Made by a program: the position numbers and the translations under genes
Part shown: piece after piece, positions 2,357-16,526 of the stretch
Numbering within the stretch: the first letter of the stretch is position 1
Layout: every line of letters begins with the position of its first letter
Assembly (NCBI GenBank): GCA_030536755.1
Contig: JAUNPJ010000026.1
Coordinates: 1 to 43,290 of the forward strand
Length of the DNA: 43,290 nucleotides
Origin: Eubacteriales bacterium
Lineage (GTDB): Bacteria > Bacillota > Clostridia > Lachnospirales > Lachnospiraceae
Direction of reading: 5' to 3'
Notes under the pieces: generated by a model
Database searches by the model: none
The model's input: only the letters and a program-made list of their open reading frames with translations
Told to the model about the DNA's origin: nothing

Positions 2357-2369
2357 AAGGAAAAAGTTC

Positions 2370-4403
2370 ATGAAAGATATTTTTAGTGTTTTTAAAGAGA
2401 AAAGATGGATCGCCAGGATGGTAATAGCCGGCGTACTGTTTTTGGCCTGTGCAGCGCCTTTTCGTATGATGCTGTCTCTTGTACCGGGAATGACAGAGGT
2501 ACGTCCTGCAAACATGATTCCGGTCGTGTTTGGTATTTTATGGGGACCGGCTGCTGCATGGGGAATTTCCATTGCCAATGCGATTTCAGATATTCTGGTT
2601 TCTCATTCGCCTGTTCAGGTATGGCTTCCGGGGTTTCTTATTAATTTTTTCTATGCGTATCTTCCGTACAAGATGTGGTACAGCATAGATTATAAAGGAA
2701 ACGGTATTGTAAAACCGAGACTTGGAAAAGTTTATGATATTTTAAAATTTATCTGGATCTGCTTTGTAGATTCTCTGGTAACGACTGTATTGCTCGCATT
2801 GCTTTTTGAGTATCTGGGATTTCAATCTTACAGTTCTTCCGCAGTCCTGTTATTTTTTAATAATTTTGATTTTGCAGTTGTGCTGGGCATTCCTGTTATT
2901 TTAGTTTTTACGAGCCGAAGAGAGGCAAAGTTCTGGATCCCGCCTATGCGAGTCATGGAAGAACAGGACGAAAAAGCGGCATCGAACTATAAGTTGTTTA
3001 CACTCTTTGATTTACTGCTGCTTCTGGTTGCTGCTTCTGGAGTTATTTATTATCTTTATTCAAAAACAACAGGATTTGTGATCGAAAAAAATGCAGAACT
3101 GGTGATACTGGTCGCATTTCTTTTTGTAGAAATTCTCTACATTCGAAGACCTTTCGGTATATACAGAAAGACACGTTTTCGAGTAAATATCCGTGAGATG
3201 TCAATTCGGGCAAAGGTAGTGCTTGGTTTTCTGATGGTATCGGTAGTATGCGTTCTTCTGATTGGCTGTAATTCTTATTTTACGCTTCGGCCGCATTTTG
3301 AATCACAAAAACAATTATGGGAATATATTTATATTGTAGTTGGTTTCTCTTTAAATGTACTGTTTGTCGTATCGATTCTCTTTTTACGATATGTAGAGCG
3401 GAAAATCACAAATCCGCTGGAACTTCTGGCGGAACAGGTAAAAGATTTTGCAAAGAGAGACCATCAGAAAGATGGCATCGAAGAAAGAAATGATTTACAG
3501 GAAAATCTCAAGGGAATTAAAACAGGTGATGAGATTGAAGGATTGTCCGATTCTTTCTGTCAGATGATGGATGATATTACTTCCTATGTAACGAATCTGG
3601 CACGGGTGACCGCCGAGAAGGAACGCATTGGAGCGGAGCTGAATGTGGCAACACAGATACAGGCGGATATGCTGCCAAGCATCTTTCCTGCTTTTCCGGA
3701 ACGGGAGGAGATTGACATTTATGCGACAATGACACCTGCCAAGGAGGTCGGCGGTGATTTCTATGACTTCTTTATGGTGGATGACAGACATCTGGCTATG
3801 GTCATGGCGGATGTATCCGGAAAGGGAGTTCCTGCGGCTTTGTTTATGGTGATTGGAAAGACATTGATTAAGGATCATACAAAGCCGGGAATGTCTCTTG
3901 GAGAGGTGTTTACGGAGGTCAACAACCTGCTTTGTGAGTCAAATAAAGAGGGATTATTCATCACCGCTTTTGAGGCAGTACTTGATTTGGTGACAGGTGA
4001 ACTTGTATTTGTGAACGCAGGACATGAGCTTCCGTTTATCCAGAAGAAAGACGGACAGTATGAGACGTATAAAACGAGAGCCGGGTTTGTACTCGCCGGC
4101 ATGGAGGGGATTCGGTATCGACAGGGTTCCCTTCAGATGGAGCCGGGAGATAAGTTATTCCTGTACACGGACGGAGTTCCTGAGGCAACGGATGCGAATG
4201 AACAACTGTATGGTATGGAACGTCTGGAGAAGATTCTCAACGAGAACAGAGAAAAACTGCCGGAAGAACTGCTTCCTGCAATTAAGGAAGATATTGACGA
4301 GTTTGTGGGAGAGGCTCCACAGTTTGATGATATTACCATGCTTTGTATGGAATATCGATGCGCAATGACAGAGCAGTCGTCGGAAGAAGAGGCGGACAAG
4401 TAA
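2370..4403 (+). CDS. Membrane SpoIIE-type PP2C protein phosphatase
   Basis: The 677-residue protein starts with hydrophobic helices (about residues 12-190) containing FGILWGPAAAWGISIANAISDIL, which resembles the small integral-membrane S-component/MASE class of sensor. A second membrane block lies at about 210-350, followed by a HAMP-like linker at about 350-415 and a SpoIIE/PP2C phosphatase domain to the end. Metal-ligand motifs are visible: EVGGDFYDF, ADVSGKGVPA and FDDITML. Such enzymes dephosphorylate a STAS-domain anti-anti-sigma factor, allowing it to capture the anti-sigma kinase. The likely kinase is the next gene, 16 bases downstream; the likely STAS partner is at 15343-15645. The signal sensed by the membrane part is unknown. 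Confidence 0.9.
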   Translation: MKDIFSVFKEKRWIARMVIAGVLFLACAAPFRMMLSLVPGMTEVRPANMIPVVFGILWGPAAAWGISIANAISDILVSHSPVQVWLPGFLINFFYAYLPYKMWYSIDYKGNGIVKPRLGKVYDILKFIWICFVDSLVTTVLLALLFEYLGFQSYSSSAVLLFFNNFDFAVVLGIPVILVFTSRREAKFWIPPMRVMEEQDEKAASNYKLFTLFDLLLLLVAASGVIYYLYSKTTGFVIEKNAELVILVAFLFVEILYIRRPFGIYRKTRFRVNIREMSIRAKVVLGFLMVSVVCVLLIGCNSYFTLRPHFESQKQLWEYIYIVVGFSLNVLFVVSILFLRYVERKITNPLELLAEQVKDFAKRDHQKDGIEERNDLQENLKGIKTGDEIEGLSDSFCQMMDDITSYVTNLARVTAEKERIGAELNVATQIQADMLPSIFPAFPEREEIDIYATMTPAKEVGGDFYDFFMVDDRHLAMVMADVSGKGVPAALFMVIGKTLIKDHTKPGMSLGEVFTEVNNLLCESNKEGLFITAFEAVLDLVTGELVFVNAGHELPFIQKKDGQYETYKTRAGFVLAGMEGIRYRQGSLQMEPGDKLFLYTDGVPEATDANEQLYGMERLEKILNENREKLPEELLPAIKEDIDEFVGEAPQFDDITMLCMEYRCAMTEQSSEEEADK

Positions 4404-4419
4404 GAACGGGGGGAATAAA

Positions 4420-4827
4420 ATGGCAGAGTTAACCTTACAGGCAAGTTTGGAAAAGCTGGATGAAGTCCTGGCTTTTGTGGAAGAAAACCTGGAAAAAAAT
4501 GACTGTCCTATGAAGGTGCTGATGCAGGTGCAGATTGCAGTGGAAGAAATTTTTGTAAACATTGCCCATTATGCATATGATTCTGAGCAGGGAACGGTAA
4601 CGATCCGTGTAGAAGTGGGAAAAGATCCTCTTCAGGCAATCATTACGTTTATTGACCAGGGAGTGCCGTATGATCCTCTGCAAAAAGAAGATCCGGATAT
4701 TTCTTTATCTGCAGAGGAAAGACAAATCGGTGGATTGGGGATTTTTATGGTTAAGAAAAGTATGGATGATGTAAAGTATGAATATAAGGATGGAAAAAAT
4801 ATTTTGACCATCAGTAAGAAAATCTGA
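4420..4827 (+). CDS. RsbW-like anti-sigma factor / serine kinase (HATPase_c)
   Basis: This 135-residue stand-alone GHKL ATPase has an N-box QIAVEEIFVNIAHYAY, a G1-type motif FIDQGVPYDP and a lid segment IGGLGIFMVKKSMD. The size and motifs match the RsbW/SpoIIAB-like family, which binds a sigma factor or phosphorylates a STAS partner. The start ATG at 4420 follows GGGGGG AATAAA. It is the last gene of the MATE-ATPase, SpoIIE, RsbW-like run. The sigma gene nearest to it is an ECF type, which is not the usual target of RsbW proteins, so the direct target remains open. Confidence 0.9.
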   Translation: MAELTLQASLEKLDEVLAFVEENLEKNDCPMKVLMQVQIAVEEIFVNIAHYAYDSEQGTVTIRVEVGKDPLQAIITFIDQGVPYDPLQKEDPDISLSAEERQIGGLGIFMVKKSMDDVKYEYKDGKNILTISKKI

Positions 4828-4842
4828 TTTTGAGGATAGAGA

Positions 4843-4887
4843 AGGGACGGTTCTTTGTCCGGAATTTCCGGACAAAGAACCGTCCCT
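4843..4887. repeat. Perfect 45-bp palindrome (REP-like)
   Basis: The 22-base arms at 4843-4864 and 4866-4887 are exact reverse complements around one central base. The arms carry GGGACGGTTCTTTGTCC. The element lies between the convergent ends of the RsbW-like gene and the leftward peptide gene. Neither side has a clear T tract, so it is less like an intrinsic terminator than a REP-type dispersed palindrome, though it could still end transcripts. Related but shorter sequences follow the stop codons at 15645 and 41060. Confidence 0.85.
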
Positions 4888-4897
4888 GTCAAAAAAA

Positions 4898-5134
4898 TTA
4901 TTCCTTTGAAGGGTTGAAAGGTTTGACACCTCCAGCCGCAAAGGAAAGTTCGTCGTCCTCTAAGAGGTCATCACAAGAATCGTTTAATAGTTCTAAAAAT
5001 TCATTAGAACAGCCAGAAATTTCATCCATAGCAGCACAGATAGAAAATAACTGTGGAATACAGTCAGTTGTTTCTAAATTGGTATCAGAATTACAACCTG
5101 GATATTTTGGAAATTTTAAATTAAATAATCTCAT
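4898..5134 (-). CDS. Putative double-glycine secreted peptide precursor (78 aa)
   Basis: The leftward ATG at 5134 is preceded by AAGGTGG at 6-nt spacing, which favours this start over the longer frame opening at 5164. The product is acidic, has five Cys (14, 25, 33, 42, 54), and ends with DELSFAAGG followed by VKPFNPSKE. The ELxxxAGG pattern matches double-glycine leader ends cut by C39 peptidase-ABC exporters, one of which lies at 7632-9812. Cleavage after Gly69 would release a nine-residue peptide. An ECF-type promoter identical in layout to those of the Nif11 precursor and the radical SAM gene lies just upstream. No family is recognised. It could be a pheromone, a second RiPP substrate, or a product whose leader is the functional part. 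Confidence 0.65.
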   Translation of the reverse strand: MRLFNLKFPKYPGCNSDTNLETTDCIPQLFSICAAMDEISGCSNEFLELLNDSCDDLLEDDELSFAAGGVKPFNPSKE

Positions 5135-5176
5135 ACAAACCACCTTAATGAAAGCGTACCACAAAGTTTATATATG

Positions 5177-5203
5177 TATACACAGAAAACGGGAAAGTGT
5201 TAC
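5177..5203 (-). promoter_or_regulatory. ECF-type promoter of the 78-aa peptide gene
   Basis: On the minus strand GTAAC (5203-5199) and GTGTATA (5183-5177) are separated by exactly 15 bases. The same two elements with the same 15-base spacing occur upstream of the Nif11 precursor and the radical SAM gene. The peptide start codon lies 43 bases beyond the -10-like element. The -35-like part lies only 17 bases before the start of the divergent sigma factor gene. Confidence 0.7.
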
Positions 5204-5220
5204 AAAAAAGGGGAATCATT

Positions 5221-5724
5221 ATGAAGCAAAATGAATTCGAAAAAATTTACAACCTTTATTATAGCAGAATTTATAGTTATATCAAGAAAAGAATTTCCAA
5301 CCATCAGGAATGTGAAGATCTGACAAATGATGTGTTTATCAATTTTTATAAAAAAATGGAGAAGTTTGATGAAGAAAGATGCAGTGTCAGTACATGGCTT
5401 TATGTGATTGCTTCTAATCGTCTGAAAAATTACTACAGAGATATGAAAGAAGAGCTGCTTTTGGAAAATATGGAGGTTTATATCGGGACTGATGAGGAAA
5501 CGCCTGAGAGAATTTTAGAATTAGAAGAGATGCGTCACGAACTTTTGGAAGCATTGAAAATGCTTTCCGTAAAGGAACGAAGTATTTTAATACAGAAATT
5601 TTATATGGGAAAAAGTTCAGTAGAAATTGCTGAGAATATGGAATTGACTGCGGGCAATGTACGGATTATTCAGAAACGTTCGTTGGAAAAATTAAAAAAA
5701 ATAATGGAGGAAAGAGGGAGGTAA
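5221..5724 (+). CDS. ECF-family RNA polymerase sigma factor
   Basis: The 167-residue protein has a sigma region 2 (about residues 5-70, with YYSRIYSYIKKRI and ECEDLTNDVFINFYKKM) and a region 4 helix-turn-helix (about 115-165, LSVKERSILIQKFYMG and SSVEIAENMELTAGNVR). The intervening linker is short, and no region 3 or extra domain is present, as expected for ECF factors. ATG 5221 is preceded by AAGGGG at good spacing; the frame is open further upstream but without better support. The stop is 2 bases from the membrane fusion protein gene, so it heads the export operon. It probably drives the GTAAC-N15-GTGTATA promoters in this locus. No classical membrane anti-sigma factor lies beside it. Confidence 0.92.
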   Translation: MKQNEFEKIYNLYYSRIYSYIKKRISNHQECEDLTNDVFINFYKKMEKFDEERCSVSTWLYVIASNRLKNYYRDMKEELLLENMEVYIGTDEETPERILELEEMRHELLEALKMLSVKERSILIQKFYMGKSSVEIAENMELTAGNVRIIQKRSLEKLKKIMEERGR

Positions 5725-5726
5725 TT

Positions 5727-7631
5727 ATGGCAGAACTGTTTAGAAAAACATCGTTGGAGAAATTATCTTCTCCAGAACAATTAGACAGAGCAATTGTGAT
5801 TACACCGCCATCTTTTTGGATTGCCCTGGCGGGTGGCTTTGTAATTGTAGTGGGAGTTTTGATTTGGGCTGTTTTTGGGAAAATTCCAGTCAATGTAGAC
5901 ACACAGGGAATTTATCTGAGCGGTGATGGCACCCGTAGTGTTTATGGAGAAGTCAATGGCATTGTTACAGAAATACAGGTAAAACAGGGGGAGCAGATCA
6001 AAGAAGGCGATGTGGTGGCTGTCGTAGGAGGCGGAGAAATTTCAAATCAGATTGAAAATCTGGGAAAGAAAATGGAGGATGTGCAGCGAGTAACGCTGAA
6101 CAGTACCTCGGATATCGTTACTGCCGATAATAAAAGCCTTCTGGATATCAAAGCTGAGAGAACGGGATTACTGGATTCCTACAACCAGACCAAAGACACT
6201 CTGAACAAGAAAAAACAAGAATTGGTTAGTGAAAAGAAAAAAGCAGAGGATTTAAAACAACAGTTGGATCATTCAAAAGACATGTATTATAATGCTTTGA
6301 ATAATACGGGAAACAGTGGTGTCGAGATTGCATACAGCGATGCTCAAAGCGAATTGTCAATCTGTCAGTCTTCCTACAGTGCAGCAGAGCAGATGGCTGA
6401 GCAGGCACTTTCTGCTGTGGAACAGGTGCAGGCAGAGTATCATGCTGTACTTACTACTTGTAATTCATTGGAGTCATCTGTGCAGTCTGCAAAGAATGCA
6501 TATGACAGTACAAAGGAAAATTATGAGAATCAGAAATCAGAAATACAGGAACTTGTGGAAAGTGGTGCTTCTCAGGAAAGTATTGACTCTGCTCAGTCGA
6601 TTCTGCAATCTCTGGAAGAACAAAAAAATCAGGCGTATGCTCTCTATTCGCAGGAAGAGGAGAAGCTTTCTTCCGCGCGTCAGAGTCTGGATGCACTTGG
6701 TGAACAGCTTTCTAATGCTGTGAATGCGAAAAATCGTGCAGACGAGGAACTTTCCGCAGCACAGATGAATTTAAATGCAGCAAAAAACAATTATCAGATT
6801 GCCAGCAATAACTATTCTGCTGAGATGAATAGCCGATCTGCGAATTCCGCTCAGCAAAGTATTACAGGTAATGAGTATACGCAGATTGCTTCTGATTATG
6901 CTGTTCAGAAAAATAAAGTAGAATCTCTGGAACAGACCATAGAATCTCTGGAACAGCAAGCATTCTCCGAAAAGGATGCTGTGGAGGCTCAGATACAGAA
7001 GATTCGTTCTTCCTTTGAAAGTACAAAAGCATCTATACTCAGTGAACTTCAGACGCAGATGGATCAGTATACAGAGAATTTGAAAAAATATGAAATCGTT
7101 TCTACGCAGGAAGGTGTTGTGCAGGAGGTAGTCGCTGTAACTGGTTCCATGGTAGGTGCCGGGTCTGAAATTATAAAAGTGAAACAGGGAAGTGAGAATC
7201 AGAAAGAAGCTCTTTGCTATATGGCTATTGGAAATGGAAAGAAAGTGGTTCCAGGTATGGAAGTGATGATTTATCCAACAACGGTAAATAAGCAGGAGTA
7301 TGGTCATATGACCGGGATTGTGGAATCTGTGGCAAGTTATGTAACTTCACAGGAAGAAATGAAGAAAAGACTTGGCGATGATACTTTGGTACAATCTTTC
7401 TTATCTCAGGGACCGGTAGTAGAAGTAACGTGCTCACTTGTAGAAGACAGCGATACGGTCAGTGGTTATGCATGGTCCAGCAAGAAAGGAAAAGATGTGT
7501 ATCTGGCGGATGGAACCATGTTGGAAGCAAGTATCATTACGGAAAGAAAAGCGCCGATTACCATGGTGATTCCTCTGTTAAAAGAACTGTTTACGGAGTC
7601 TGTATCATCGAGAGCAGAGGAGGCGCAGTAG
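5727..7631 (+). CDS. NHLM bacteriocin system secretion protein (HlyD-type membrane fusion protein)
   Basis: The 634-residue protein has one N-terminal membrane helix (about residues 30-52), a barrel-sandwich/lipoyl-like half motif (GEVNGIVTEIQVKQGEQIKEGDVVAVV, split across about 73-98), a very long Gln/Ser/Ala-rich coiled coil (about 140-430), and a second half motif beginning STQEGVVQEVVAVTGSMV. This order is that of HlyD/MFP adaptors that couple an ABC exporter to the cell surface. It precedes two ABC transporters in the arrangement known for NHLM (nitrile-hydratase-like/Nif11 leader) peptide export. The ATG follows GGGAGGT. The coiled coil is longer than in typical Gram-negative HlyD. Confidence 0.92.
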   Translation: MAELFRKTSLEKLSSPEQLDRAIVITPPSFWIALAGGFVIVVGVLIWAVFGKIPVNVDTQGIYLSGDGTRSVYGEVNGIVTEIQVKQGEQIKEGDVVAVVGGGEISNQIENLGKKMEDVQRVTLNSTSDIVTADNKSLLDIKAERTGLLDSYNQTKDTLNKKKQELVSEKKKAEDLKQQLDHSKDMYYNALNNTGNSGVEIAYSDAQSELSICQSSYSAAEQMAEQALSAVEQVQAEYHAVLTTCNSLESSVQSAKNAYDSTKENYENQKSEIQELVESGASQESIDSAQSILQSLEEQKNQAYALYSQEEEKLSSARQSLDALGEQLSNAVNAKNRADEELSAAQMNLNAAKNNYQIASNNYSAEMNSRSANSAQQSITGNEYTQIASDYAVQKNKVESLEQTIESLEQQAFSEKDAVEAQIQKIRSSFESTKASILSELQTQMDQYTENLKKYEIVSTQEGVVQEVVAVTGSMVGAGSEIIKVKQGSENQKEALCYMAIGNGKKVVPGMEVMIYPTTVNKQEYGHMTGIVESVASYVTSQEEMKKRLGDDTLVQSFLSQGPVVEVTCSLVEDSDTVSGYAWSSKKGKDVYLADGTMLEASIITERKAPITMVIPLLKELFTESVSSRAEEAQ

Positions 7632-9812
7632 ATGGGAATAAACATAGGGGATAATAAGGAAAGAAAATCAAAAAAATATGCCAAGACTCCTACCATTTAT
7701 CAGATGGAAGCTACGGAGTGTGGTGCTGCATCGTTGTCCATGATTATGGGGTTTTATGGAAGACATGTTCCTCTGGAGAAAATGAGAATTGAGACGGGGG
7801 TATCCCGAGATGGATGTAATGCTAAGAATATTTTAAGGGCAGCCAGAAAATATGGATTTGAAGCAAAAGGTTATCGCAAATCGATGAATTCTCTGATGGA
7901 GGTTACTCCTCCCTGCATTATTCATTGGAATTTTAATCACTTTGTTGTCTATGAGGGACGAAAGGGAAATTATTTTTATATCAACGACCCTGCTATGGGA
8001 CGACGGAAGCTTACCTATGAAGATTTAAATGATGCTTTTACCGGTATTGTTCTGACTTTTCAGAAAACCAGTGAATTTAAGAAGGAAAAAAGGCAGCGGA
8101 CATTGCTTGGATTCATCCAAAATCGCCTGAAGGGACAATTCAGTGCAATCATGGCAATGATAGCAATTGGATTTTTGCTTGTATTCCCGGGACTGATTAT
8201 CCCGGTATTTTCACAGGTATTTATTGATGATATTTTAATTGGAGGCAATACTGGATGGATGGGTATCTTTCTGGTAATCATGGTCTGTACGATGCTGTTC
8301 CAGGCGGCTTTTACATATTACAGGGGAATTTTGCTGCAGAAATTACAGAACAAGCTTTCTATGGTGTCTGCACATAGTTTTCTGTCTCATCTTTTCCGTC
8401 TGCCGATGGGATTTTTTGACCAGAGATATGCGGGAGATTTGGCAGAGCGTGTAAAGAACAACAATAATGTAAATAACTTTCTGGCAGGAGATTTGGCAGA
8501 AACGGTGTTAAATATTCTTGTGGCGGCATTTTATCTGGTCTTGCTGCTTTTGTACAGTCCTTTATTGACGTTGATTGGAATTGCCGGAATTGTCATTAAT
8601 ATGCTTTTGGTACAGCTTACTTCTGGAATCATTGAGAGTTCCACTATGAAGATGCAGCAGGATTCTGGAAAGTTGATCGGAGCAGTGTTTGCAGGACTGA
8701 ATATTACCAGTACATTGAAGGCTTCCGGTGCGGAAAGTGAATACACCAGCAGAATTCTGGGATATTATGCAAAAACGATTCGTATGGAGCAAAAACTGGG
8801 AAAAATGCAGCAGATCATCAATGCGATTCCAAATGTGTTTAACGAGATTTCTAACGTATTGGTCATTTTATTTGGCGGTATTTTAGTCATTCGTGGAGAA
8901 ATGACAGCAGGTATGCTGGTGGCATTTACCAGCCTTTTGGATGCCTTTATAGATCCGGTAAATAAACTGGTGGGATTTATTCAGAAAATTCAGACTCTGA
9001 AGGCGGATATGAGCCGTGTGGAAGATATCATGCGTTACGACCAGGATGAAAAATTTACGCCATCTCAAAATCAGGTGGCTATGACATCGAAACTTAGCGG
9101 TGACGTGGAGCTTCGTGATATTTCTTTTGGATACAGTATTCTGGAAAAACCTCTGGTGGAGAATTTTTCTTTTCATTTGGAATGTGGACGCTCCATCGCC
9201 TTTGTTGGGGCTTCCGGTTGTGGGAAGTCTACCGTATCGAAAATTGTAAGTGGACTGTATCTGCCCTGGTCTGGAGAAATTCTTATGGATGGCGTACCGG
9301 TGCGGGATATTCCAAAGGAAATCATAAGTTCCAGTGTTTCTACTGTAAGTCAGAAAATCACGTTGTTTTCTGGCAGTATTCGAGATAATCTTACGATGTG
9401 GAACAGCAGCATTCTGGAGGAGGATATGATCCGTGCCGCTAAGGATGCCTGCATTCATGACGTAATCACGAAAAAACCTGGTGCCTATGAATTTCATCTG
9501 GATGAGGGAGGAGCAAACCTTTCCGGAGGTCAGAAGCAGAGATTGGAAATTGCCTGTGCTCTGGCGACAAACCCTACCATTTTGATTATGGATGAGGCAA
9601 CCAGTGCATTGGATCCGATGGTAGAAAAACAGATCGTGGATAATATTAAGCGAAGAGGATGTACCTGTATCATTGTAGCACACCGTTTGTCTGCTATCCG
9701 TGACTGCGATGAGATTATTGTCATGGAGAGAGGCAAGATCGTACAGAGAGGTACGCATGAGAGCCTGATGGAACAGGAAGGTCACTATCAGCGACTGATT
9801 CAGAATATATAG
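7632..9812 (+). CDS. NHLM system peptidase/ABC exporter (C39 PCAT)
   Basis: This 726-residue fused exporter has an N-terminal C39 cysteine peptidase domain (about 20-145) with Cys30 in MEATECGAAS, His103 in NHFVVYEG and Asp119 in INDP as the catalytic triad. A six-helix ABC membrane domain (about 165-460) and a nucleotide-binding domain follow, with Walker A GASGCGKST, signature LSGGQKQR and Walker B ILIMDEATSALD. Such enzymes cut after a Gly-Gly leader end and export the core peptide. Its likely substrates are the Nif11-type precursor at 12514 and perhaps the 78-aa peptide at 4898-5134. It starts directly after the stop of the fusion protein gene, so the two are probably translationally coupled. 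Confidence 0.95.
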   Translation: MGINIGDNKERKSKKYAKTPTIYQMEATECGAASLSMIMGFYGRHVPLEKMRIETGVSRDGCNAKNILRAARKYGFEAKGYRKSMNSLMEVTPPCIIHWNFNHFVVYEGRKGNYFYINDPAMGRRKLTYEDLNDAFTGIVLTFQKTSEFKKEKRQRTLLGFIQNRLKGQFSAIMAMIAIGFLLVFPGLIIPVFSQVFIDDILIGGNTGWMGIFLVIMVCTMLFQAAFTYYRGILLQKLQNKLSMVSAHSFLSHLFRLPMGFFDQRYAGDLAERVKNNNNVNNFLAGDLAETVLNILVAAFYLVLLLLYSPLLTLIGIAGIVINMLLVQLTSGIIESSTMKMQQDSGKLIGAVFAGLNITSTLKASGAESEYTSRILGYYAKTIRMEQKLGKMQQIINAIPNVFNEISNVLVILFGGILVIRGEMTAGMLVAFTSLLDAFIDPVNKLVGFIQKIQTLKADMSRVEDIMRYDQDEKFTPSQNQVAMTSKLSGDVELRDISFGYSILEKPLVENFSFHLECGRSIAFVGASGCGKSTVSKIVSGLYLPWSGEILMDGVPVRDIPKEIISSSVSTVSQKITLFSGSIRDNLTMWNSSILEEDMIRAAKDACIHDVITKKPGAYEFHLDEGGANLSGGQKQRLEIACALATNPTILIMDEATSALDPMVEKQIVDNIKRRGCTCIIVAHRLSAIRDCDEIIVMERGKIVQRGTHESLMEQEGHYQRLIQNI

Positions 9813-9826
9813 GGGAGGGAAAGACA

Positions 9827-12373
9827 ATGATGGTTAATTTGAAAGGTGGTATGACGCATCTTACGGATCAGACAGATTCTGCCTATCGGGTGAAATCTGG
9901 AAATGTGTTGGTTTATATCCTTCCTTATGAGGAGAAAAAGACGGGAAGACGTTATCTTCTTTATGAGGCTCAGAAAAATGATTGCATTCCTTCACTTTGC
10001 TGGGAGAATGAAAAGCTGGGAACATGGAGATTCTGTCTTGTGGCTTTGGAGACTGCACAGCTGGAGCAATATGTGCCGGAGGATATGGACGCAGTGAAAA
10101 TGGAATTTGCTGCCTGTATGGACGTAAAACTGTTCTCGCCGGAGGAATTTGAAGAACAAATGGTGGAACAATTTAACATCAACATGATTAAGGAAGAAAG
10201 TGGGATTTATGCCACAGCTCTGGAACAGGAAAGAAGTTATGAGCAGAGTCTTCAGATTGTTTATGATATGTTCCAAAAAAAGACCAGAGTGACAAAAACA
10301 GAGCCAAGTGGAAATAAAACTTATGATGCAGTTGCGAAAATCTGTGATTATATGGGAATTAAAATGATGCCTTTTGAACTGGTGAGGGAAAGCTGCAGAA
10401 GAAAGATCACATTATACGATATTGCCCGCTTGTCTCATTTTACCACCAGGCAGATTATTTTGGAGGAAAACTGGTATAAGAAGGATTCCGGTGCAATATT
10501 GGCTTACAAAAGAAAGGGAAGGACTCCGATTGCCTGCATTCCCAAAGGTCCGTCAAAATATATTGCCTATGATGTATCGGACAATAGTGAACAAACGATT
10601 GATGAAGATTATGCCCAAACTTTGGAAGTTCAGGCAGATATGTTATATCGTCCATTTCCGATGGAGAAAATCAATTTGAAAAAGCTGCTGCAGTTTGGAT
10701 TGAGAGGCGTTTATAAACGCGAAATCGTGAATCTTTTGTTTCTGTCACTTTTGGGGACTTTGGTAGGACTGTTGATTCCTGTGATCAATCAACAACTTTA
10801 TGACAAATATATTCCTATGGCCGATCAAAACGGACTGGTGCAGATGTGTATGGTAGTGCTGGCCTGCACATTGGGAAACCTGGGATTTACAGTAGTGAAA
10901 AATCTTGCGACGTTTCGCAGCATGAACAGTATGGAATATGCGGTACAAAGTGCCACTTATGATCGTCTGTTCAGTCTTCCGGAGAGCTTTTTCAGAGAGT
11001 ATGAGTCAGCGGACCTGGCGCAGAGAGTTATGGGCGTTACCTCTATTTTTCAGGTCATGGCAGATGTCATGCTCCAGACACTTTTAAATGTAGTCTTTTC
11101 TGTACTCTATTTGGTAAGAATGTTTCAGTACAGCGGAAAATTGTCAGGAATTGCTTTTTTTATGGTATTGGTGATTATGTTGATTACCGGATTTGTAGGA
11201 TATCGGCAGTTAAAATATGAAGGCGAGTTAATGGAATTGGAGGGCAGAATTTCCTCTATACTATACCAATTTTTGGTAGGAATTTCGAAGATTCGTATTG
11301 CGGGAATTGAAAATCGTGCACTCCTGGAATATTTAAAACCGTACGCCAGGGCAAGAAAGCTGACAATGAACAAAGAGCGCATGAGTGTGTTGGTGGATAC
11401 CATCATAGGTGCTTCTGGTGTGCTGTTTTCCATTGTACTGTATTTCGTTATGGTAAAACAGAGTGTCTCATTGAGTATGGGTGCTTTTATGGGCTTTATG
11501 ACCGCTTTTGGATCTTTTTCGGGTGCTATGATGGGAATGGTTTCGTCCTTTATGGATGTCAACAATGTCATTCCTGCTTATAAACGCTGCAGACCGGTAT
11601 TAGATACCTTGCCTGAATTTGAAGAAGATACCCTGCTTCCTGGAACTTTGACAGGGGATATTGAGGTGTCAAATGTGGATTTTGCATACAATCAGGAAAG
11701 CGGGTTGGTTTTGAATGAATTGTCTTTCCATGTAAAAGCCGGGGAATATATCGGTATTGTAGGATCTTCAGGGTGTGGAAAGTCGACACTGATGAAATTG
11801 CTGTTGGGATTTGAAAAACCGCAGAAGGGTAAGATTTTTTACGATGGGAAAGATATTGACAGCATGGATAAACGAGAGCTTCGTAAGAAATTTGGTGTGG
11901 TGCTCCAGGACGGTGATTTGATTTCGGGAAGCATTTATGACAACATCATCATTACTGCTCCGAATACGACAATGAAGCGTGTGGAACAGGTAGTGGAAGA
12001 AGTTGGACTAAAGCAGGATATTGAACAGATGCCTATGGGGCTGCATACCATTCTGTCTGAGGACAGCGGAACCATATCAGGTGGACAGAAGCAGAGAATT
12101 CTTATCGCAAGAGCCATTGTGGGAAAACCAAAGATTCTTTATTTTGATGAAGCAACCAGTGCGTTGGATAACGTGACACAGTCTATGGTATGCCAGAGCT
12201 TGGAAAAATTGAATGCCACCAGAATTGTCATTGCTCATCGGCTCAGTACGGTTATGAACTGTGATCGGATTTTTGTTATGGATCAGGGAAAAATTGTAGA
12301 AGAAGGAAATTACCAGCAGCTCATGGAGAAGCGTGGATTGTTTTATCAGCTTGCCAGCCGACAGATGGCGTAA
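9827..12373 (+). CDS. NHLM system ABC transporter, second ATP-binding subunit
   Basis: The 848-residue protein has an N-terminal region of about 290 residues without peptidase residues, as in the second ABC protein of NHLM systems. An ABC membrane domain (about 300-580) and an ATPase domain follow, with Walker A GSSGCGKST, signature ISGGQKQR and Walker B ILYFDEATSALD. It lacks the Cys/His pair of C39 domains, so processing must fall to the preceding gene product. The ATG is preceded by GGGGAGGGA. It is 14 bases downstream of the PCAT gene and completes the export operon; the precursor gene follows after a 140-base gap holding its own promoter. Confidence 0.93.
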   Translation: MMVNLKGGMTHLTDQTDSAYRVKSGNVLVYILPYEEKKTGRRYLLYEAQKNDCIPSLCWENEKLGTWRFCLVALETAQLEQYVPEDMDAVKMEFAACMDVKLFSPEEFEEQMVEQFNINMIKEESGIYATALEQERSYEQSLQIVYDMFQKKTRVTKTEPSGNKTYDAVAKICDYMGIKMMPFELVRESCRRKITLYDIARLSHFTTRQIILEENWYKKDSGAILAYKRKGRTPIACIPKGPSKYIAYDVSDNSEQTIDEDYAQTLEVQADMLYRPFPMEKINLKKLLQFGLRGVYKREIVNLLFLSLLGTLVGLLIPVINQQLYDKYIPMADQNGLVQMCMVVLACTLGNLGFTVVKNLATFRSMNSMEYAVQSATYDRLFSLPESFFREYESADLAQRVMGVTSIFQVMADVMLQTLLNVVFSVLYLVRMFQYSGKLSGIAFFMVLVIMLITGFVGYRQLKYEGELMELEGRISSILYQFLVGISKIRIAGIENRALLEYLKPYARARKLTMNKERMSVLVDTIIGASGVLFSIVLYFVMVKQSVSLSMGAFMGFMTAFGSFSGAMMGMVSSFMDVNNVIPAYKRCRPVLDTLPEFEEDTLLPGTLTGDIEVSNVDFAYNQESGLVLNELSFHVKAGEYIGIVGSSGCGKSTLMKLLLGFEKPQKGKIFYDGKDIDSMDKRELRKKFGVVLQDGDLISGSIYDNIIITAPNTTMKRVEQVVEEVGLKQDIEQMPMGLHTILSEDSGTISGGQKQRILIARAIVGKPKILYFDEATSALDNVTQSMVCQSLEKLNATRIVIAHRLSTVMNCDRIFVMDQGKIVEEGNYQQLMEKRGLFYQLASRQMA

Positions 12374-12513: not shown

Positions 12514-12819
12514 ATGGCAACAATCAAAGAAGTATTAGCGAACGAAGAAGTAGCAAAGGAGTTTTTCAGCAAAGAGTCACCAGAAGAGGCACAGGCATTT
12601 TTAAAAGAAAAAGGTGTTGAGGTTAGCCTGGACGAAATGAAAGAGCTTGGCGCTGCTCTTGAAAAAGCACAGGATGGGGAGTTAGGCGATGAGGATCTTG
12701 AAAATGTAGCAGGCGGCGGAGTCATTAAAGAGGGTTTTGATGATATCGTAAAAATTGCCGATTTACTGGTACAGCGTGAAACATGGGATAGGGTAGGACG
12801 TTGGTTTAAAAGATGGTAA
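12514..12819 (+). CDS. Nif11-like leader RiPP/bacteriocin precursor
   Basis: The 101-residue peptide starts at ATG 12514 after AAGGAGGATTTTAGT; the in-frame ATG at 12454 lacks such a site. Residues 1-68 form an acidic helical leader of Nif11 type, ending GDEDLENVAGG, a double-glycine cleavage site. The predicted core (69-101) begins GVIKEGFDD and ends VGRWFKRW. It has no Cys, four Arg (88, 93, 96, 100) and three Trp (91, 97, 101), all in its last 14 residues. Lack of Cys excludes lanthipeptide and sactipeptide thioethers. The adjacent arginase-like and radical SAM genes point to Arg-to-ornithine conversion plus a radical modification, perhaps at Trp. A terminator follows, so it can be made in excess. 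Confidence 0.92.
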   Translation: MATIKEVLANEEVAKEFFSKESPEEAQAFLKEKGVEVSLDEMKELGAALEKAQDGELGDEDLENVAGGGVIKEGFDDIVKIADLLVQRETWDRVGRWFKRW

Positions 12820-12855
12820 TTTGACCGTACCAGCAGTATGAAATCATGCATCAGC

Positions 12856-12894
12856 AAAAGGAGATTATTCCTGAAAAGGGGATAGTCTCCTTTT
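12856..12894 (+). terminator. Intrinsic terminator after the precursor gene
   Basis: AAAAGGAGA (12856-12864) pairs with TCTCCTTTT (12886-12894), with further partial pairing inside. The hairpin ends in a T-rich tract. It separates precursor transcription from the modification genes, which have their own promoter 16 bases further on. Confidence 0.75.
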
Positions 12895-12909
12895 CTTCGT
12901 AAAAAAAGT

Positions 12910-12936
12910 GTAACAATTGAGAGAAACATGTGTATA
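12910..12936 (+). promoter_or_regulatory. ECF-type promoter of the radical SAM/arginase operon
   Basis: GTAAC (12910-12914) and GTGTATA (12930-12936) again stand 15 bases apart. The GTG start of the radical SAM gene is 45 bases downstream. This is the third copy of the element in the locus. Confidence 0.7.
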
Positions 12937-12980
12937 AAATAAGAGAATGACGAGTGTATTTGACTGGAGGGATGCTTTCG

Positions 12981-14405
12981 GTGAAGGAATATTTCGAATA
13001 TTTGGATAGAAAAAATTATGGAGAGCGGTTGTCCTGGAGAAAAGAATGGAAAAAGCTGCAGGATCAAGAGGGGATATGGAATCTTGTAAGATTTTCGGGA
13101 CGGAAATGCGATAAAAAACTTTGTCAGAATCGATTGTCTGTATGGGGAACGTTTCAGGAAGGACGATTTTTTCCGAAAAGATGTCATACAAAAGACTGGA
13201 TTGCAATTTTGCAGATCTTAAAAGAAGAACAGGCGCTCAAAGAAGAAGAGTGGGAGGCACTCAAAGACTGGATCTGCCGTTATCCTTCTCACCATCCATA
13301 CATAGAAAATGCAATGGAATGGCTGTCTTTTTATGAGGAAGATCCTGAACATAGTTCCATAGAAGTGGCTCTTTCCATGAGAAAAGAAAAACGAAGAGAA
13401 TTCCCGGCGTATGACACACCAATGCTGATGAATCTGGAGTTGACTACCCGATGCCCTCTGCGATGTCCACAGTGCTATTGCAGTCTGGAAGGCGGACGGG
13501 ATTTATCCATAGAACAGGCAAAATACTGGGTAGAACAGGCTGCTCTGAATGGCGTGCAGCAAATCAATCTGAGTGGCGGAGAGACGATGTGTTATCCAGA
13601 TCTGTTTTTGTTGATGGCTTATATTCGGGAAATGGGAATGAAATCGAATGTAGCTTTGTCTGGATATAACTTCGACAAAGAGGTCTTAGAAAAAATGTGC
13701 CAAAATGGTGTGAATGACATCTGTATTTCTCTGAATGGTCCCACAGAGGAAATCAACAGATGGAGCCGCGATGGATTTTCATTGGCGATGAGTGCGCTGG
13801 AGATTTTAAAAGATTTTCAATTTCCAAGAACGACTATTAATTGGGTGATGCATCGAAACAATGCAGATTCCCTGCCTCAAATGACAGAACTTGCAGAAAA
13901 ATATGATGTGAGGGAACTGGTCGTTATGGTATTTAAGCCGGATTCCCAAAATCAGAGAAAAAGCGTTCCTACGAAAGAACAGCTTTTAAAAACAGCCAGA
14001 TTTATGAAAGATTATCGAGGACCGGTAGAACTTGTGGCGGAGGACTGCTTTTCCCAGATGCGAACGCTTCTTGGCAGAAGCTTTATTGGAAATAGAAATC
14101 GAGGTCTGGGAAGAGGATGCGGGGCAGGAAGAGATGGAGTTTCTGTAACGGTAGACGGAAAGCTGACGCCCTGCCGTCACTTAGAAGTTCCTGAGGACTT
14201 TTCTTCTTTAAAAGAATACTGGGCGAACTCTCTTTTTCTGAAGGAGATCCGCAAAGTGGAAGATCAGAAGCAGGAACCCTGCAAAAATTGTCAATATGAA
14301 AGATATTGTCTTCCCTGTCTTGCAGTCAACTGGAAACAAAAGGGAAAATTATTCATAGGGGAAGAAACCTGTAAATTACATGAAAGAGAGGAAAGAAAAG
14401 AATGA
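12981..14405 (+). CDS. Radical SAM/SPASM peptide maturase
   Basis: I take GTG 12981 as the start (474 residues) because GGAGGG lies about 9 bases upstream; upstream in-frame starts at 12954 and 12972 are less well placed. An N-terminal region of about 145 residues of unknown fold precedes a radical SAM core with CPLRCPQC (Cys158, 162, 165, CX3CX2C) and an SGGE motif. The C-terminus has a SPASM pattern: CX12GX4C, then CX2CX5CX2C and a last Cys, giving two auxiliary iron-sulfur clusters. SPASM enzymes install C-C, C-S or C-O bonds or epimerise residues in peptides. The core lacks Cys, so a carbon-based crosslink or epimerisation is more likely. The stop overlaps the next start (ATGA). Confidence 0.92.
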   Translation: MKEYFEYLDRKNYGERLSWRKEWKKLQDQEGIWNLVRFSGRKCDKKLCQNRLSVWGTFQEGRFFPKRCHTKDWIAILQILKEEQALKEEEWEALKDWICRYPSHHPYIENAMEWLSFYEEDPEHSSIEVALSMRKEKRREFPAYDTPMLMNLELTTRCPLRCPQCYCSLEGGRDLSIEQAKYWVEQAALNGVQQINLSGGETMCYPDLFLLMAYIREMGMKSNVALSGYNFDKEVLEKMCQNGVNDICISLNGPTEEINRWSRDGFSLAMSALEILKDFQFPRTTINWVMHRNNADSLPQMTELAEKYDVRELVVMVFKPDSQNQRKSVPTKEQLLKTARFMKDYRGPVELVAEDCFSQMRTLLGRSFIGNRNRGLGRGCGAGRDGVSVTVDGKLTPCRHLEVPEDFSSLKEYWANSLFLKEIRKVEDQKQEPCKNCQYERYCLPCLAVNWKQKGKLFIGEETCKLHEREERKE

Positions 14406-15274
14406 CAATACCTGTTTGCTTGATCGAAGAACATCATGAAGCATATTACTGCTGGCATTACTTTAAAGAGCAGGGATGGATTGAAAAGGAAAATAATTAT
14501 CTTTTGCATATTGATCATCATGATGACCTTGCATCACCAGCTTATCTGTGGGATTTTTCAAAAATGCCTCAAAACTACGAAGAAGCAAGAGAATTTGTTT
14601 ATCAGGCTTTGGGAATAGGCGATTTTATTTTTCCGGCAGTTTATGAAAAGCTTTTTTCGGTTGTACATTTGATGCTGAAAGTAACTCCGGAGGAGTATGA
14701 GAATATTGAACGTGTGATAAAAGCAAAAGGTACAGAATTGCTTGTAAAAAAATACATTCCGTTTATTCATGAAAAGTATAGAAAGGATCCAAAGAGTCCG
14801 TATGCGTTTTTTACGATGCGTTCGGGGGGATTAAATCCGATTAAAATTGAGCAGCCTTTGGTGTTGGATGTAGATCTGGATTATTTCTGCTGGGACGATT
14901 CCTGTGCTACAGGGACGAAAAGCACAATAGAAATCACAAAAGAAGCCTACGAAGATTTTCAGACAAATCGTTATCATCCTTTTCGGTTAATGGCAAAGAG
15001 AATCATGCAGGCGGAAATTCGTGATGGAAAATATTATCTTAATTGTGTATCGGGAAAAGAAAGGGATATCATTCCAGACAAAGAAAAGATGATAGGACGG
15101 ATAGAACGTGTGATAAACTGGCTTTCTGAAAACCAGATATGTCCGGCTGCGATTGATATATGTCGTTCTGCACATTCCGGGTATTTGCCATCTGAAGAGG
15201 CAAAATTTGTAGAAGAGGAATTTTTGCATCGTCTGGGAAAACTTTATGACTTAAAATTTTATAATTTATTGTAG
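14402..15274 (+). CDS. UPF0489-family protein, probable peptide arginase
   Basis: The 290-residue protein matches the UPF0489 family, which includes OspR of the landornamide pathway, an enzyme that turns peptide Arg into ornithine. Arginase-type manganese ligands are visible: HIDHHDD (Asp38, His40, Asp42 in DxHxD) and LDVDLD (Asp156, Asp158, Asp160). An early EEHHEAYYCWHY segment is also typical of the family. Its start overlaps the stop of the radical SAM gene by four bases, so the two are translated together. The precursor core carries four Arg, a plausible substrate set. Family identity rests on motif recall and was not searched. Confidence 0.85.
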   Translation: MTIPVCLIEEHHEAYYCWHYFKEQGWIEKENNYLLHIDHHDDLASPAYLWDFSKMPQNYEEAREFVYQALGIGDFIFPAVYEKLFSVVHLMLKVTPEEYENIERVIKAKGTELLVKKYIPFIHEKYRKDPKSPYAFFTMRSGGLNPIKIEQPLVLDVDLDYFCWDDSCATGTKSTIEITKEAYEDFQTNRYHPFRLMAKRIMQAEIRDGKYYLNCVSGKERDIIPDKEKMIGRIERVINWLSENQICPAAIDICRSAHSGYLPSEEAKFVEEEFLHRLGKLYDLKFYNLL

Positions 15275-15342: not shown

Positions 15343-15645
15343 ATGATGCAGATTACATTAGAACAGACAGATGATGAACTGGTTGTACTTCCAAAAGGAA
15401 GAATTGATACTTCTACAGCGGATGAATTTGGAGAAAAATTAATGGCTGCGATTGAAGAGGCAGACTGTGTCAGAATTGATTTTGAAGAGGTGGCTTACAT
15501 ATCCAGTGCTGGTCTTAGAGTTTTGTTAAACGCGCAAAAAACAGTGAATCGCAACGGCAAGGAACTGATTTGCTGCAATATCAATGAAATTGTAGAGTCG
15601 GTACTTGTTTCTACAGGCTTTACCAATATACTGACGATTGAGTAG
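15343..15645 (+). CDS. STAS-domain anti-anti-sigma factor
   Basis: The 100-residue protein is a single STAS domain with GRIDTSTADEF near residues 19-29 and the phosphorylation loop YISSAGLRVLL, where the second Ser is the usual target of RsbW-type kinases. It resembles SpoIIAA/RsbV. It is placed inside the RiPP locus, 68 bases after the arginase-like gene, while the matching kinase and phosphatase genes lie 10 kb upstream. Together they form a complete partner-switching set. ATG 15343 or 15346 may be used; AGAAAGGAAAG precedes both. Confidence 0.92.
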   Translation: MMQITLEQTDDELVVLPKGRIDTSTADEFGEKLMAAIEEADCVRIDFEEVAYISSAGLRVLLNAQKTVNRNGKELICCNINEIVESVLVSTGFTNILTIE

Positions 15646-15683: not shown

Positions 15684-16526
15684 ATGAAATTATCACCGAT
15701 AGAAGCTATGATTTATCGTTATCCGCAGCTTACGTTACTGCCCGGTGAGGGGATGTCTCAGGATGAAGCGTATATTCGTATTGCGCGGCGTGGCAAGTTT
15801 CCGCAGAAACTTTCCAATCCTTACCATTCTTCTCCAAAAGATTTTTTCCGTATAGAAAAGACAATTGCGGGAAATATTGAATGGTTGTATTTGGATAACA
15901 GAGAGGATTTTGAGCGATTTGTTCAGGTATTGGCTTATCGATGTGAGAATCGTGTTGTTCCTGCCTCTATGGGAGCGGTGACAATCACAAATCTGAACAA
16001 TTGGAGAAAAATAGAAGCACACAAAAAATCGTATCTGTTATCGGGAGGAACAGACTGGAAGGGAGAATTTCAAAGATTTACCAGCATTCCGGAGAACTAT
16101 AAAGATACGCTTGTCATTGTCGGAAGTGGCGGCTATAGTGGGATTTCTGCTCAGAGTGCGGGATTTGAGGATGAGGAATGGCTGCAATTATCTATGACAA
16201 TTCGCCTCTATCATGAGATGGCTCACGTGGTTTTCAAAAGAATGTGCAAGAAGGAAAGAGATCCGCTTATAGAAGAAGTGGTAGCAGACGCTGCGGGAAT
16301 CTATAAAGCGTTTGGAACTTACCTTCCAGCATTAGCGAAGAAATTTCTTGGAATCGAAGAGAAAGAATATCGACAGGGAGGGAGACTTGAAAACTATCTG
16401 AAAGATAATCAGACTGTCGATCAGGTAAGACCAGAGATTGAACAGAAAATCGAGCAAATTGATGAATATTTAAAAAGTTTTCCTGAGAATGATAGAGATA
16501 TATTCGAGATTTTGTTGGATATGTAG
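15684..16526 (+). CDS. HExxH putative zinc metallopeptidase
   Basis: The 280-residue protein contains HEMAH (His177, Glu178, His181) and, 16-17 residues later, EEVVADAAG, where Glu198 would be the third zinc ligand in a gluzincin arrangement. The N-terminal 150 residues resemble nothing I can name. There is no signal peptide or membrane helix, so it acts in the cytoplasm. It has an AGGAGG site and follows the STAS gene by 38 bases, so it is probably the last gene of the RiPP operon. It could trim or degrade the leader or precursor, or serve immunity; the sequence does not decide. Confidence 0.75.
   Translation: MKLSPIEAMIYRYPQLTLLPGEGMSQDEAYIRIARRGKFPQKLSNPYHSSPKDFFRIEKTIAGNIEWLYLDNREDFERFVQVLAYRCENRVVPASMGAVTITNLNNWRKIEAHKKSYLLSGGTDWKGEFQRFTSIPENYKDTLVIVGSGGYSGISAQSAGFEDEEWLQLSMTIRLYHEMAHVVFKRMCKKERDPLIEEVVADAAGIYKAFGTYLPALAKKFLGIEEKEYRQGGRLENYLKDNQTVDQVRPEIEQKIEQIDEYLKSFPENDRDIFEILLDM

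Follow-up and report, generated by a model that had tools for sequence, protein, structure and literature searches.

What is made from a small leader-bearing peptide whose gene is followed by those of a radical S-adenosylmethionine (SAM) enzyme and an arginase-like protein, and which residues of the peptide do the two enzymes alter? The question is posed by a stretch of 43,290 nucleotides (hereafter the window) from a Lachnospiraceae genome deposited as Eubacteriales bacterium (assembly GCA_030536755.1, contig JAUNPJ010000026.1; our genome G000), of which it forms one entire contig, and in which positions 12,514 to 15,274 of the forward strand encode a Nif11-like precursor, a radical SAM/SPASM maturase and a UPF0489 (PF12640) protein (Table 1). 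We lean towards reading the cluster as a pathway for a ribosomally synthesised and post-translationally modified peptide (RiPP), secreted after an arginase and the radical SAM enzyme have acted on its C-terminal segment, with relatives adding prenylation of a tryptophan, a step that would have been lost in the window and in its nearest relative, locus L004.

The peptide arginase and its precursor

Judged by its sequence, the UPF0489 protein is homologous to peptide arginases of the OspR kind, which is what an earlier reading of this DNA from its letters alone (the sequence-only reading) had proposed. One solved relative was found by phmmer, OspR itself (PDB 8BRP), matched over residues 3–284 at an E-value of 7.1e-45; the second PDB chain in that search (E 0.71) was set aside as a chance match. 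The metal motifs EEH, DHHDD and DVDLD are all present in the window enzyme: E10, H11, D38, H40 and D42 (EEH and DxHxD) are identical in all 20 of the aligned rows that cover them, two further rows being truncated there, and D156, D158 and D160 (DxDLD) in 22 of 22. PF12640 enzymes convert peptide arginine to ornithine and are described with NHLP, N11P, SCIFF and other precursors (PMC12703449), and OspR requires a divalent metal, probably manganese, its DxHxD triple mutant being depleted of manganese (PMC10028609). The residues of this manganese site, whose absence the sequence-only reading would have counted against its own proposal, are present in the window at the level of sequence. Against the FlmR/OhkR arginase model NF052474 the match is near full-length and reaches 204.1 bits, below the cut-off of 350, with relatives scoring 199.6 (L006), 189.4 (L014) and 194 (L017). 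The ATG of the arginase gene overlaps the stop codon of the radical SAM gene by 4 bp (ATGA), an overlap that had been picked out earlier along with the DxHxD and DVDLD motifs.

The precursor leader terminates in ELGDEDLENVAGG, and the core that follows, GVIKEGFDDIVKIADLLVQRETWDRVGRWFKRW, is without cysteine and ends in RWFKRW. A Gly-Gly site preceded by L(X)4L is present, and an NHLM exporter with a C39 peptidase is encoded in the same run of genes. Scores lie beneath the curated cut-offs of both TIGR03798, the Nif11 leader model (E 2e-6, 27.9 bits against 32.3), and Pfam Nif11 (PF07862; 13.6 bits against 23.8), hence the term Nif11-like used here for what had been read as a Nif11-type precursor. 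It shares 69% identity with the L004 precursor and is the sole match in G000 to a profile (A3) built from these precursors. When it was aligned with 26 relatives, M1, L57, L62 and G68 were invariant, and no core column before the terminal Trp was invariant or near-invariant. The Cys-free core, part of the combination for which the sequence-only reading considered a different product class, does not mark the family, as the cores of L003, L006, L008 and L085 contain cysteine; the family mark is a C-terminal (Arg-)Trp.

The arginase is rare, being found in 2 of 397 genomes of the window's family (the window genome included), and searches of plasmid records gave no match to it. An arginase profile search gave 21 loci, for which features were counted per locus, or per genome where the contig is broken. 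The sequence-only reading had staked its case on precursor and arginase recurring together, and Nif11-like precursors do accompany 18 of the 21 arginases, those of L005, L007 and L012 lying on the same contigs as the arginases; the precursor profile gave no match for L016 or L020, and a weak one for L024 (E 7e-4). The same radical SAM protein occurs in 16 of the 21, 14 times with CxxxCxxC in one frame, the copy of L014 being split over two frames and that of L022 lacking CxxxCxxC. The grouping of these genes is beyond chance, as seen from this co-occurrence, from the NHLM export genes upstream, and from proportions of nonsynonymous differences (pN) far below those of synonymous differences (pS) between window and L004 in the two ATP-binding cassette (ABC) exporters, the precursor, the radical SAM enzyme and the arginase. 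In G798, the Oscillospiraceae genome to which L022 belongs, the profile of Nif11-like precursors is matched 55 times, over many contigs.

The C-terminal Arg–Trp motif

In many relatives the maturase carries a further N-terminal domain, described below, and the precursors were sorted by whether this domain and the arginase are encoded with them. At the 14 loci or genomes with both, Trp is the last residue of 38 of 43 precursors and follows an Arg there (Arg-Trp, RW) in 34 of the 43, T-R-x-R-W being a frequent tail; in the window and L004, where the domain is vestigial, both precursors end in RW (RWFKRW and RWFRRW); and at L008, which has the arginase and an isopentenyl diphosphate (IPP) isomerase, both end in Trp and one in RW. 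Where the arginase occurs without the domain (L017, L018), Trp ends three of five precursors and RW none, and where the domain occurs without an arginase having been found (L038, L040, L044, L046), Trp ends 10 of 12 and RW again none. Counted per locus, a precursor ending in RW is present at 13 of the 14 loci with arginase and domain, at L008, in the window and at L004, at none of the four domain-only loci and at neither of the two arginase-only ones. These counts by locus type indicate that the Trp goes with the domain and the preceding Arg with the arginase; a Fisher test on the Trp-ended precursors gives P 1.5e-7, a value to be read loosely because related sequences were treated as independent.

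No PF12640 match was found in the whole genomes behind L036, L037, L038 and L040 (G542 and G656 among them), and none in the records of the plasmids that carry L043, L044 and L046, the corresponding chromosomes not having been searched. Rows without a Gly-Gly-type site were dropped from the counts (one from L047, one from L084 and two from L023, of which one is a decayed fragment with SRW at its end), as were one L044 row cut by the locus end and L015, which is on the same contig as L003. G798 entered the counts through the six rows of its contig C184 alone, the tails seen among its other precursors being both with and without Trp. The L041 and L042 stretches and the matches in G734 and G774, the latter resembling sigma-54 activators by eye, were excluded from all counts.

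The N-terminal domain of the relatives

About 300 extra residues are found at the N-terminus of the radical SAM protein in 12 of the 16 arginase-bearing genomes that have this protein (13 if the split L014 copy is counted), and the domain stands alone in L039, L040, L090, Azospirillum L044 and Nostoc L043. Among the residues invariant in 15 copies are E49, D60, W76, E78, D80, G148, M150, R153, R160, D208 and K249, with K217, K275, K287 and Y289 near-invariant.

This domain is probably a peptide prenyltransferase acting on the conserved C-terminal Trp, an assignment drawn from its association with IPP isomerase, from a prediction borne out at L019, from the lack of a Pfam prenyltransferase among neighbouring genes and from the precedent of MppC. 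The isomerase is present in eight of 14 domain-bearing loci or genomes (L006, L011, L014, L015, L019, L021, L022, L023) and in one of seven without the domain (L008, on a broken contig), and in L006, L011 and the genome of L021 domain, radical SAM enzyme and isomerase are joined in one chain. The cut-off of 127 for NF002995 was passed by L003 (160.5; same contig as L015), L014 (136.2) and G798, the genome of L022 (153.7), the remaining isomerase copies, fused ones included, resting on phmmer. At L019 the isomerase lacks a fused domain, and a stand-alone copy of the domain, predicted on that account, was then found in its genome. Ten neighbouring open reading frames (ORFs) of isomerase-bearing loci, including all four with DDxxD, gave no Pfam prenyltransferase match, two of the ten being uninformative or matchless. 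The precedent, MppC of the Moorena mpp cluster, is an ABBA prenyltransferase whose action on Trp82 of a heptapeptide core depends on a Nif11 leader (PMC12715784).

Further forms of the domain and its partners were seen. At L003 (16377-17120) an IPP isomerase adjoining the arginase is fused to a LuxR-type DNA-binding domain, and in three fusions (L036, 9632-11542; L037, 9097-10818; L022, 1063-2775) the radical SAM part has lost CxxxCxxC, the SPASM part of the L022 fusion still being over its cut-off. On plasmid pAB510a of Azospirillum sp. B510 (L044, 2600-9100) the stand-alone domain lies beside precursors with, by eye, an NHLP-like leader, PRKW and KKPW being the tails of two of these precursors. 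ORFs nearby are TfuA- and YcaO-like by eye, and there is a protein of 597 aa that has no Pfam match but is similar to one in Pseudanabaena L046. In the latter (P. galeata plasmid pPg_03, 5512-7305) the domain is fused to a 2-oxoglutarate-Fe(II) (2OG-Fe(II)) oxygenase beside LanM and a Nif11 precursor ending IKW. PDB sequence matches of two domain profiles, A2 and A4, were chance matches only; nothing matching the Pseudanabaena copy turned up among phage records, and a search of 381 genomes of the class with A4 found nothing, in a sample that included no genome known to match.

A remnant of the domain in the window

The window enzyme is a radical SAM/SPASM protein, as the sequence-only reading had it, with both domains over their cut-offs and the CxxxCxxC motif CPLRCPQC. 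GTG 12981 is its likely start, preceded by ggaggg at 12966-12971 and coinciding with the point at which the relatives begin. Among the best 25 of its 49 NCBIfam matches, all named SPASM equivalogs are under their cut-offs: PqqE, the best score (116 bits against 381), MftC, third by E-value (85 against 265), WgkB (58 against 650), nif11 class 3 (47 against 725) and PapB (38 against 340). An identity as TIGR04103 (nif11 maturase 3) was dropped on score.

Its N-terminal part is an internally deleted remnant of the relatives' domain. Both ends align with that domain, YPSHHPYIEN in the window corresponding to YPSHTPYIQN in L014, and AKAYL of the domain is replaced by VALSM in the window; about 150 middle residues are absent, and the same deletion is seen in L004. 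The full domain as the relatives have it, Lys/Tyr motifs included, is not present in the window maturase, profiles A2 and A4 gave no match in G000, and no second copy was found in the window or L004 genomes. Between window and L004 the remnant (pN 0.307, pS 0.844) shows weaker constraint than does the radical SAM part (0.148, 0.777); it is still under some constraint, and so may serve in holding the leader. IPP isomerase has no match in G000, and the L004 genome reaches only 37 bits against the cut-off of 127. With the domain internally deleted and no isomerase over cut-off, the lineage of the window and L004 appears to have lost the prenyl-type step. L022 is the mirror case, with a whole domain and the radical SAM cysteines gone. 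This wider picture, of fusions between radical SAM enzyme and domain, several with an IPP isomerase, and of a deleted remnant in the window, had been missed by the sequence-only reading.

Proposed pathway and alternatives

In the pathway that we favour, the Nif11-like leader would deliver the precursor to the maturases, and the UPF0489 protein would very probably hydrolyse core arginines, chiefly those before the terminal Trp in RWFKRW, to ornithine and urea, as homology to OspR and the association of Arg-Trp with the arginase suggest. The radical SAM/SPASM enzyme would next generate a carbon-centred radical on the same C-terminal aromatic and basic segment; that it alters this segment, most likely to give a crosslink or an oxidised Trp, is a guess which we would not press. 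The C39 exporter would cleave after Gly-Gly and secrete the peptide, which the DUF7005 protein encoded downstream might trim. In most relatives with the radical SAM protein, the N-terminal domain would prenylate the C-terminal Trp, with IPP isomerase supplying the donor in many genomes.

A number of observations weigh against this pathway. The window precursor lies below both Nif11 cut-offs. The terminal Trp is absent from five of the 43 precursors at loci with arginase and domain, and from all ten at loci with a diverged domain and no arginase (L036, L037, L043); L039 has arginase and domain and no profile-matched precursor, its sole precursor-like ORF (7608-7922) ending LPRGC; and L008 retains Trp and RW tails although its genome, a partial one of 1.5 Mb, yielded no copy of the domain. 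Six of the 14 domain-bearing genomes have no isomerase over the cut-off. The domain itself has no believable match in Pfam, NCBIfam or PDB sequences, and profile-profile comparisons were not significant either with PagF, PirF and LimF (Prob 0.2) or, by hhalign, with relatives of NphB, where the score was equalled by 4 of 40 column shuffles. The NphB–PagF positive control also fails; since these two are known to share a fold, the profile-profile test is powerless here and is counted neither way. The last point is the oxygenase fusion of L046, which would suit a module for binding leaders.

That possibility, with the relatives' domain recognising Nif11 leaders, its two ends kept in the window for leader binding and the isomerase incidental or in another role, would account for the fusion of the domain to differing tailoring enzymes (radical SAM enzymes and the L046 oxygenase), for the leader-type precursors that adjoin it at the loci inspected, for the absence of a match to any prenyltransferase profile and for the constraint on both ends in the window. 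We nevertheless think it unlikely, given that the isomerase is so unevenly distributed (eight of 14 genomes with the domain against one of seven without it, the latter on a broken contig), that the domain has an invariant or near-invariant Lys/Arg/Tyr pattern, that the isomerase-bearing loci, whose ORFs were listed and ten of them scanned with Pfam, hold no other prenyltransferase candidate, and that the terminal Trp is constant across Firmicutes, Azospirillum and Pseudanabaena despite their differing leaders.

An explanation which dispenses with the other enzymes at the C-terminus is that the arginase alone shapes it, an Arg/Lys/Trp-rich cationic tail being kept for membrane activity and the target of the radical SAM enzyme lying in another part of the core. 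Antimicrobial peptides rich in Arg and Trp have such cationic tails, and many of the cores here join a cationic RW tail to a hydrophobic or amphipathic stretch; the genome of L022, moreover, keeps RW precursors though its radical SAM protein lacks CxxxCxxC. Composition alone, however, sets no such positional limit as that seen in 38 of 43 and 10 of 12 precursors, where Trp is exactly terminal, and the alignment of 27 precursors offers no invariant or near-invariant core column before it, so that we give this explanation little credence. It is very improbable that the UPF0489 protein is no arginase here and has some other ureohydrolase-like or structural role: the score against the FlmR/OhkR model, far below its cut-off, would fit such a role, but the near full-length OspR match, the retention of every metal-motif position and the occurrence of Arg-Trp only where the arginase is present do not.

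Neighbouring genes and control

The cluster belongs to an operon-like run of plus-strand genes that opens with one for an extracytoplasmic function (ECF) sigma factor, continues through those for the NHLM secretion protein and both NHLM exporters to the precursor, maturase and arginase genes, and closes with genes for a STAS and a DUF7005 protein (Table 1). The C39 exporter is expected to cut after the leader Gly-Gly. The DUF7005 protein is possibly a metallopeptidase for final peptide trimming; homologues were found by phmmer, some of them weak, at the arginase loci L005, L006, L008, L009, L012, L014, L017, L023 and L039. The hairpin between the precursor and maturase genes is perhaps a partial terminator or a stabiliser of the RNA. 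On its flanks (575-5234; 15343-15645) the cluster has a MATE transporter–HATPase fusion, a SpoIIE phosphatase, an RsbW-like HATPase, the ECF sigma factor and the STAS protein, which are likely to form a partner-switching control module. SpoIIE homologues are also encoded at L005, L006, L007, L009, L012, L016 and L017. Directly behind the cluster of L006 (5255-6172) lies a gene for a phosphatidylglycerol lysyltransferase-type protein (PF09924, 117.8 bits), with a possible role in self-protection or tailoring.

Table 1. Features of the cluster in the window, with the matches on which their names rest
Feature	Position	Strand	Details
ECF sigma factor gene, first of the run entering the cluster	5197..5724	+	Sigma70_r2 56.7 bits and TIGR02937 108.8 bits, both above cut-offs; homologue in L004
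NHLM/NHLP HlyD-type secretion protein	5727..7631	+	TIGR03794 244.5 bits (cut-off 156.2)
NHLM exporter with C39 peptidase	7632..9812	+	TIGR03796 1043 bits (cut-off 853.3); Peptidase_C39 127.5 bits
Second NHLM exporter, permease/ATPase	9827..12373	+	TIGR03797 894 bits (cut-off 709.4)
Nif11-like precursor, 101 aa	12514..12819	+	ATG 12514, stop 12817-12819; aaggagg immediately 5'
Strong hairpin, precursor–maturase gap	12853..12896	+	-23.6 kcal/mol, z -5.8; 0 of 200 shuffles equally stable
Radical SAM/SPASM maturase, 474 aa from GTG 12981	12981..14405	+	Longest ORF from 12954; PF04055 77.7 bits (cut-off 29.5), SPASM 23.9 (cut-off 21.5)
Internally deleted remnant of the relatives' ~300-aa domain (N-terminal maturase part)	12981..13400, end approximate	+	Both ends align with the domain
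Peptide arginase homologue, UPF0489/PF12640, 290 aa	14402..15274	+	PF12640 46.4 bits (cut-off 27)
STAS anti-sigma factor antagonist	15343..15645	+	PF01740 64.5 bits and TIGR00377 76.5 bits, both above cut-offs; also in L006, L014
DUF7005 protein with HExxH (LYHEMAHVV, by eye)	15684..16526	+	PF22541 197 bits (cut-off 27)

Significance and comparison with known systems

To our knowledge, few known ribosomal pathways yield ornithine or a prenylated Trp at the C-terminal end of a peptide. Neither the combination of a radical SAM/SPASM enzyme with Arg-Trp nor the fusions of domain, radical SAM enzyme and isomerase were found in the open-licence literature searched; subscription papers, such as that of Hubrich (2024), reportedly on ribosomal peptides with polycyclic isoprenoids, may describe some of this. 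The sequence-only reading is partly supported; as to its suggestion of a different product class, the pairing of Nif11 precursor and arginase by itself is already published, peptide arginases on Nif11 (N11P) precursors being described in PMC12703449, so that an ornithine RiPP alone makes no new class. With confidence just short of even, we suggest that the loci could represent a new RiPP class with (Thr-Arg-x-)Arg-Trp at the C-terminus as its mark. In some members a single polypeptide would unite IPP isomerase, radical SAM/SPASM enzyme and peptide prenyltransferase, and with the peptide arginase the products would end in ornithine beside a prenylated, radical-modified Trp, the window lineage having dropped the prenyl step and kept arginase and radical SAM enzyme. 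If true, a maturase that combines in one chain a radical SAM enzyme with a probable prenyltransferase and with the isomerase that makes its donor would have an architecture new to the literature searched. The single-step gains and losses across genomes, of arginase, radical SAM cysteines, prenyl-type domain and isomerase, hint at which enzyme reads which residue, and the loci offer small sets of two to four genes; the domain is found, moreover, in cyanobacterial and Azospirillum clusters.

Of the known maturases, PqqE and MftC rank high among the NCBIfam models that the window enzyme matches, yet it scores far below their cut-offs, and their leaders and clusters differ. MftA likewise ends in a conserved aromatic residue. 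With the PF12640 peptide arginases, represented by OspR (landornamide), FlmR and OhkR, and BipC/PbsE, the window enzyme shares homology to OspR, the three metal motifs and an adjoining RiPP precursor; in contrast to FlmR and OhkR, it forms a subfamily of its own (204 against 350 bits), one that goes together with a radical SAM/SPASM enzyme and with Arg-Trp at the precursor C-terminus. In the enteropeptin pathway of Firmicutes, a radical SAM step precedes KgrD. This enzyme shares the conversion of peptide arginine to ornithine, but belongs to PF00491 and requires a Cys-derived thiomorpholine (PMC12703449); chemistry of the enteropeptin type is excluded here, as the window core is without cysteine.

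The prenylation proposed for the relatives has its closest parallels in MppC/MppE and PalQ. In the portion of PMC12715784 consulted, MppC/MppE share the Nif11-leader precursor with L(X)4L and the leader-dependent prenylation of one Trp, and differ in that the product is a lanthipeptide, with no mention in that portion of an arginase or of a radical SAM fusion. PalQ, for its part, is a trans-isoprenyl diphosphate synthase-like enzyme, unlike the relatives' domain, and belongs to another cluster, yet it too prenylates a C-terminal Trp, and extension of the peptide abolishes its activity (PMC10853753, PMC13290415).

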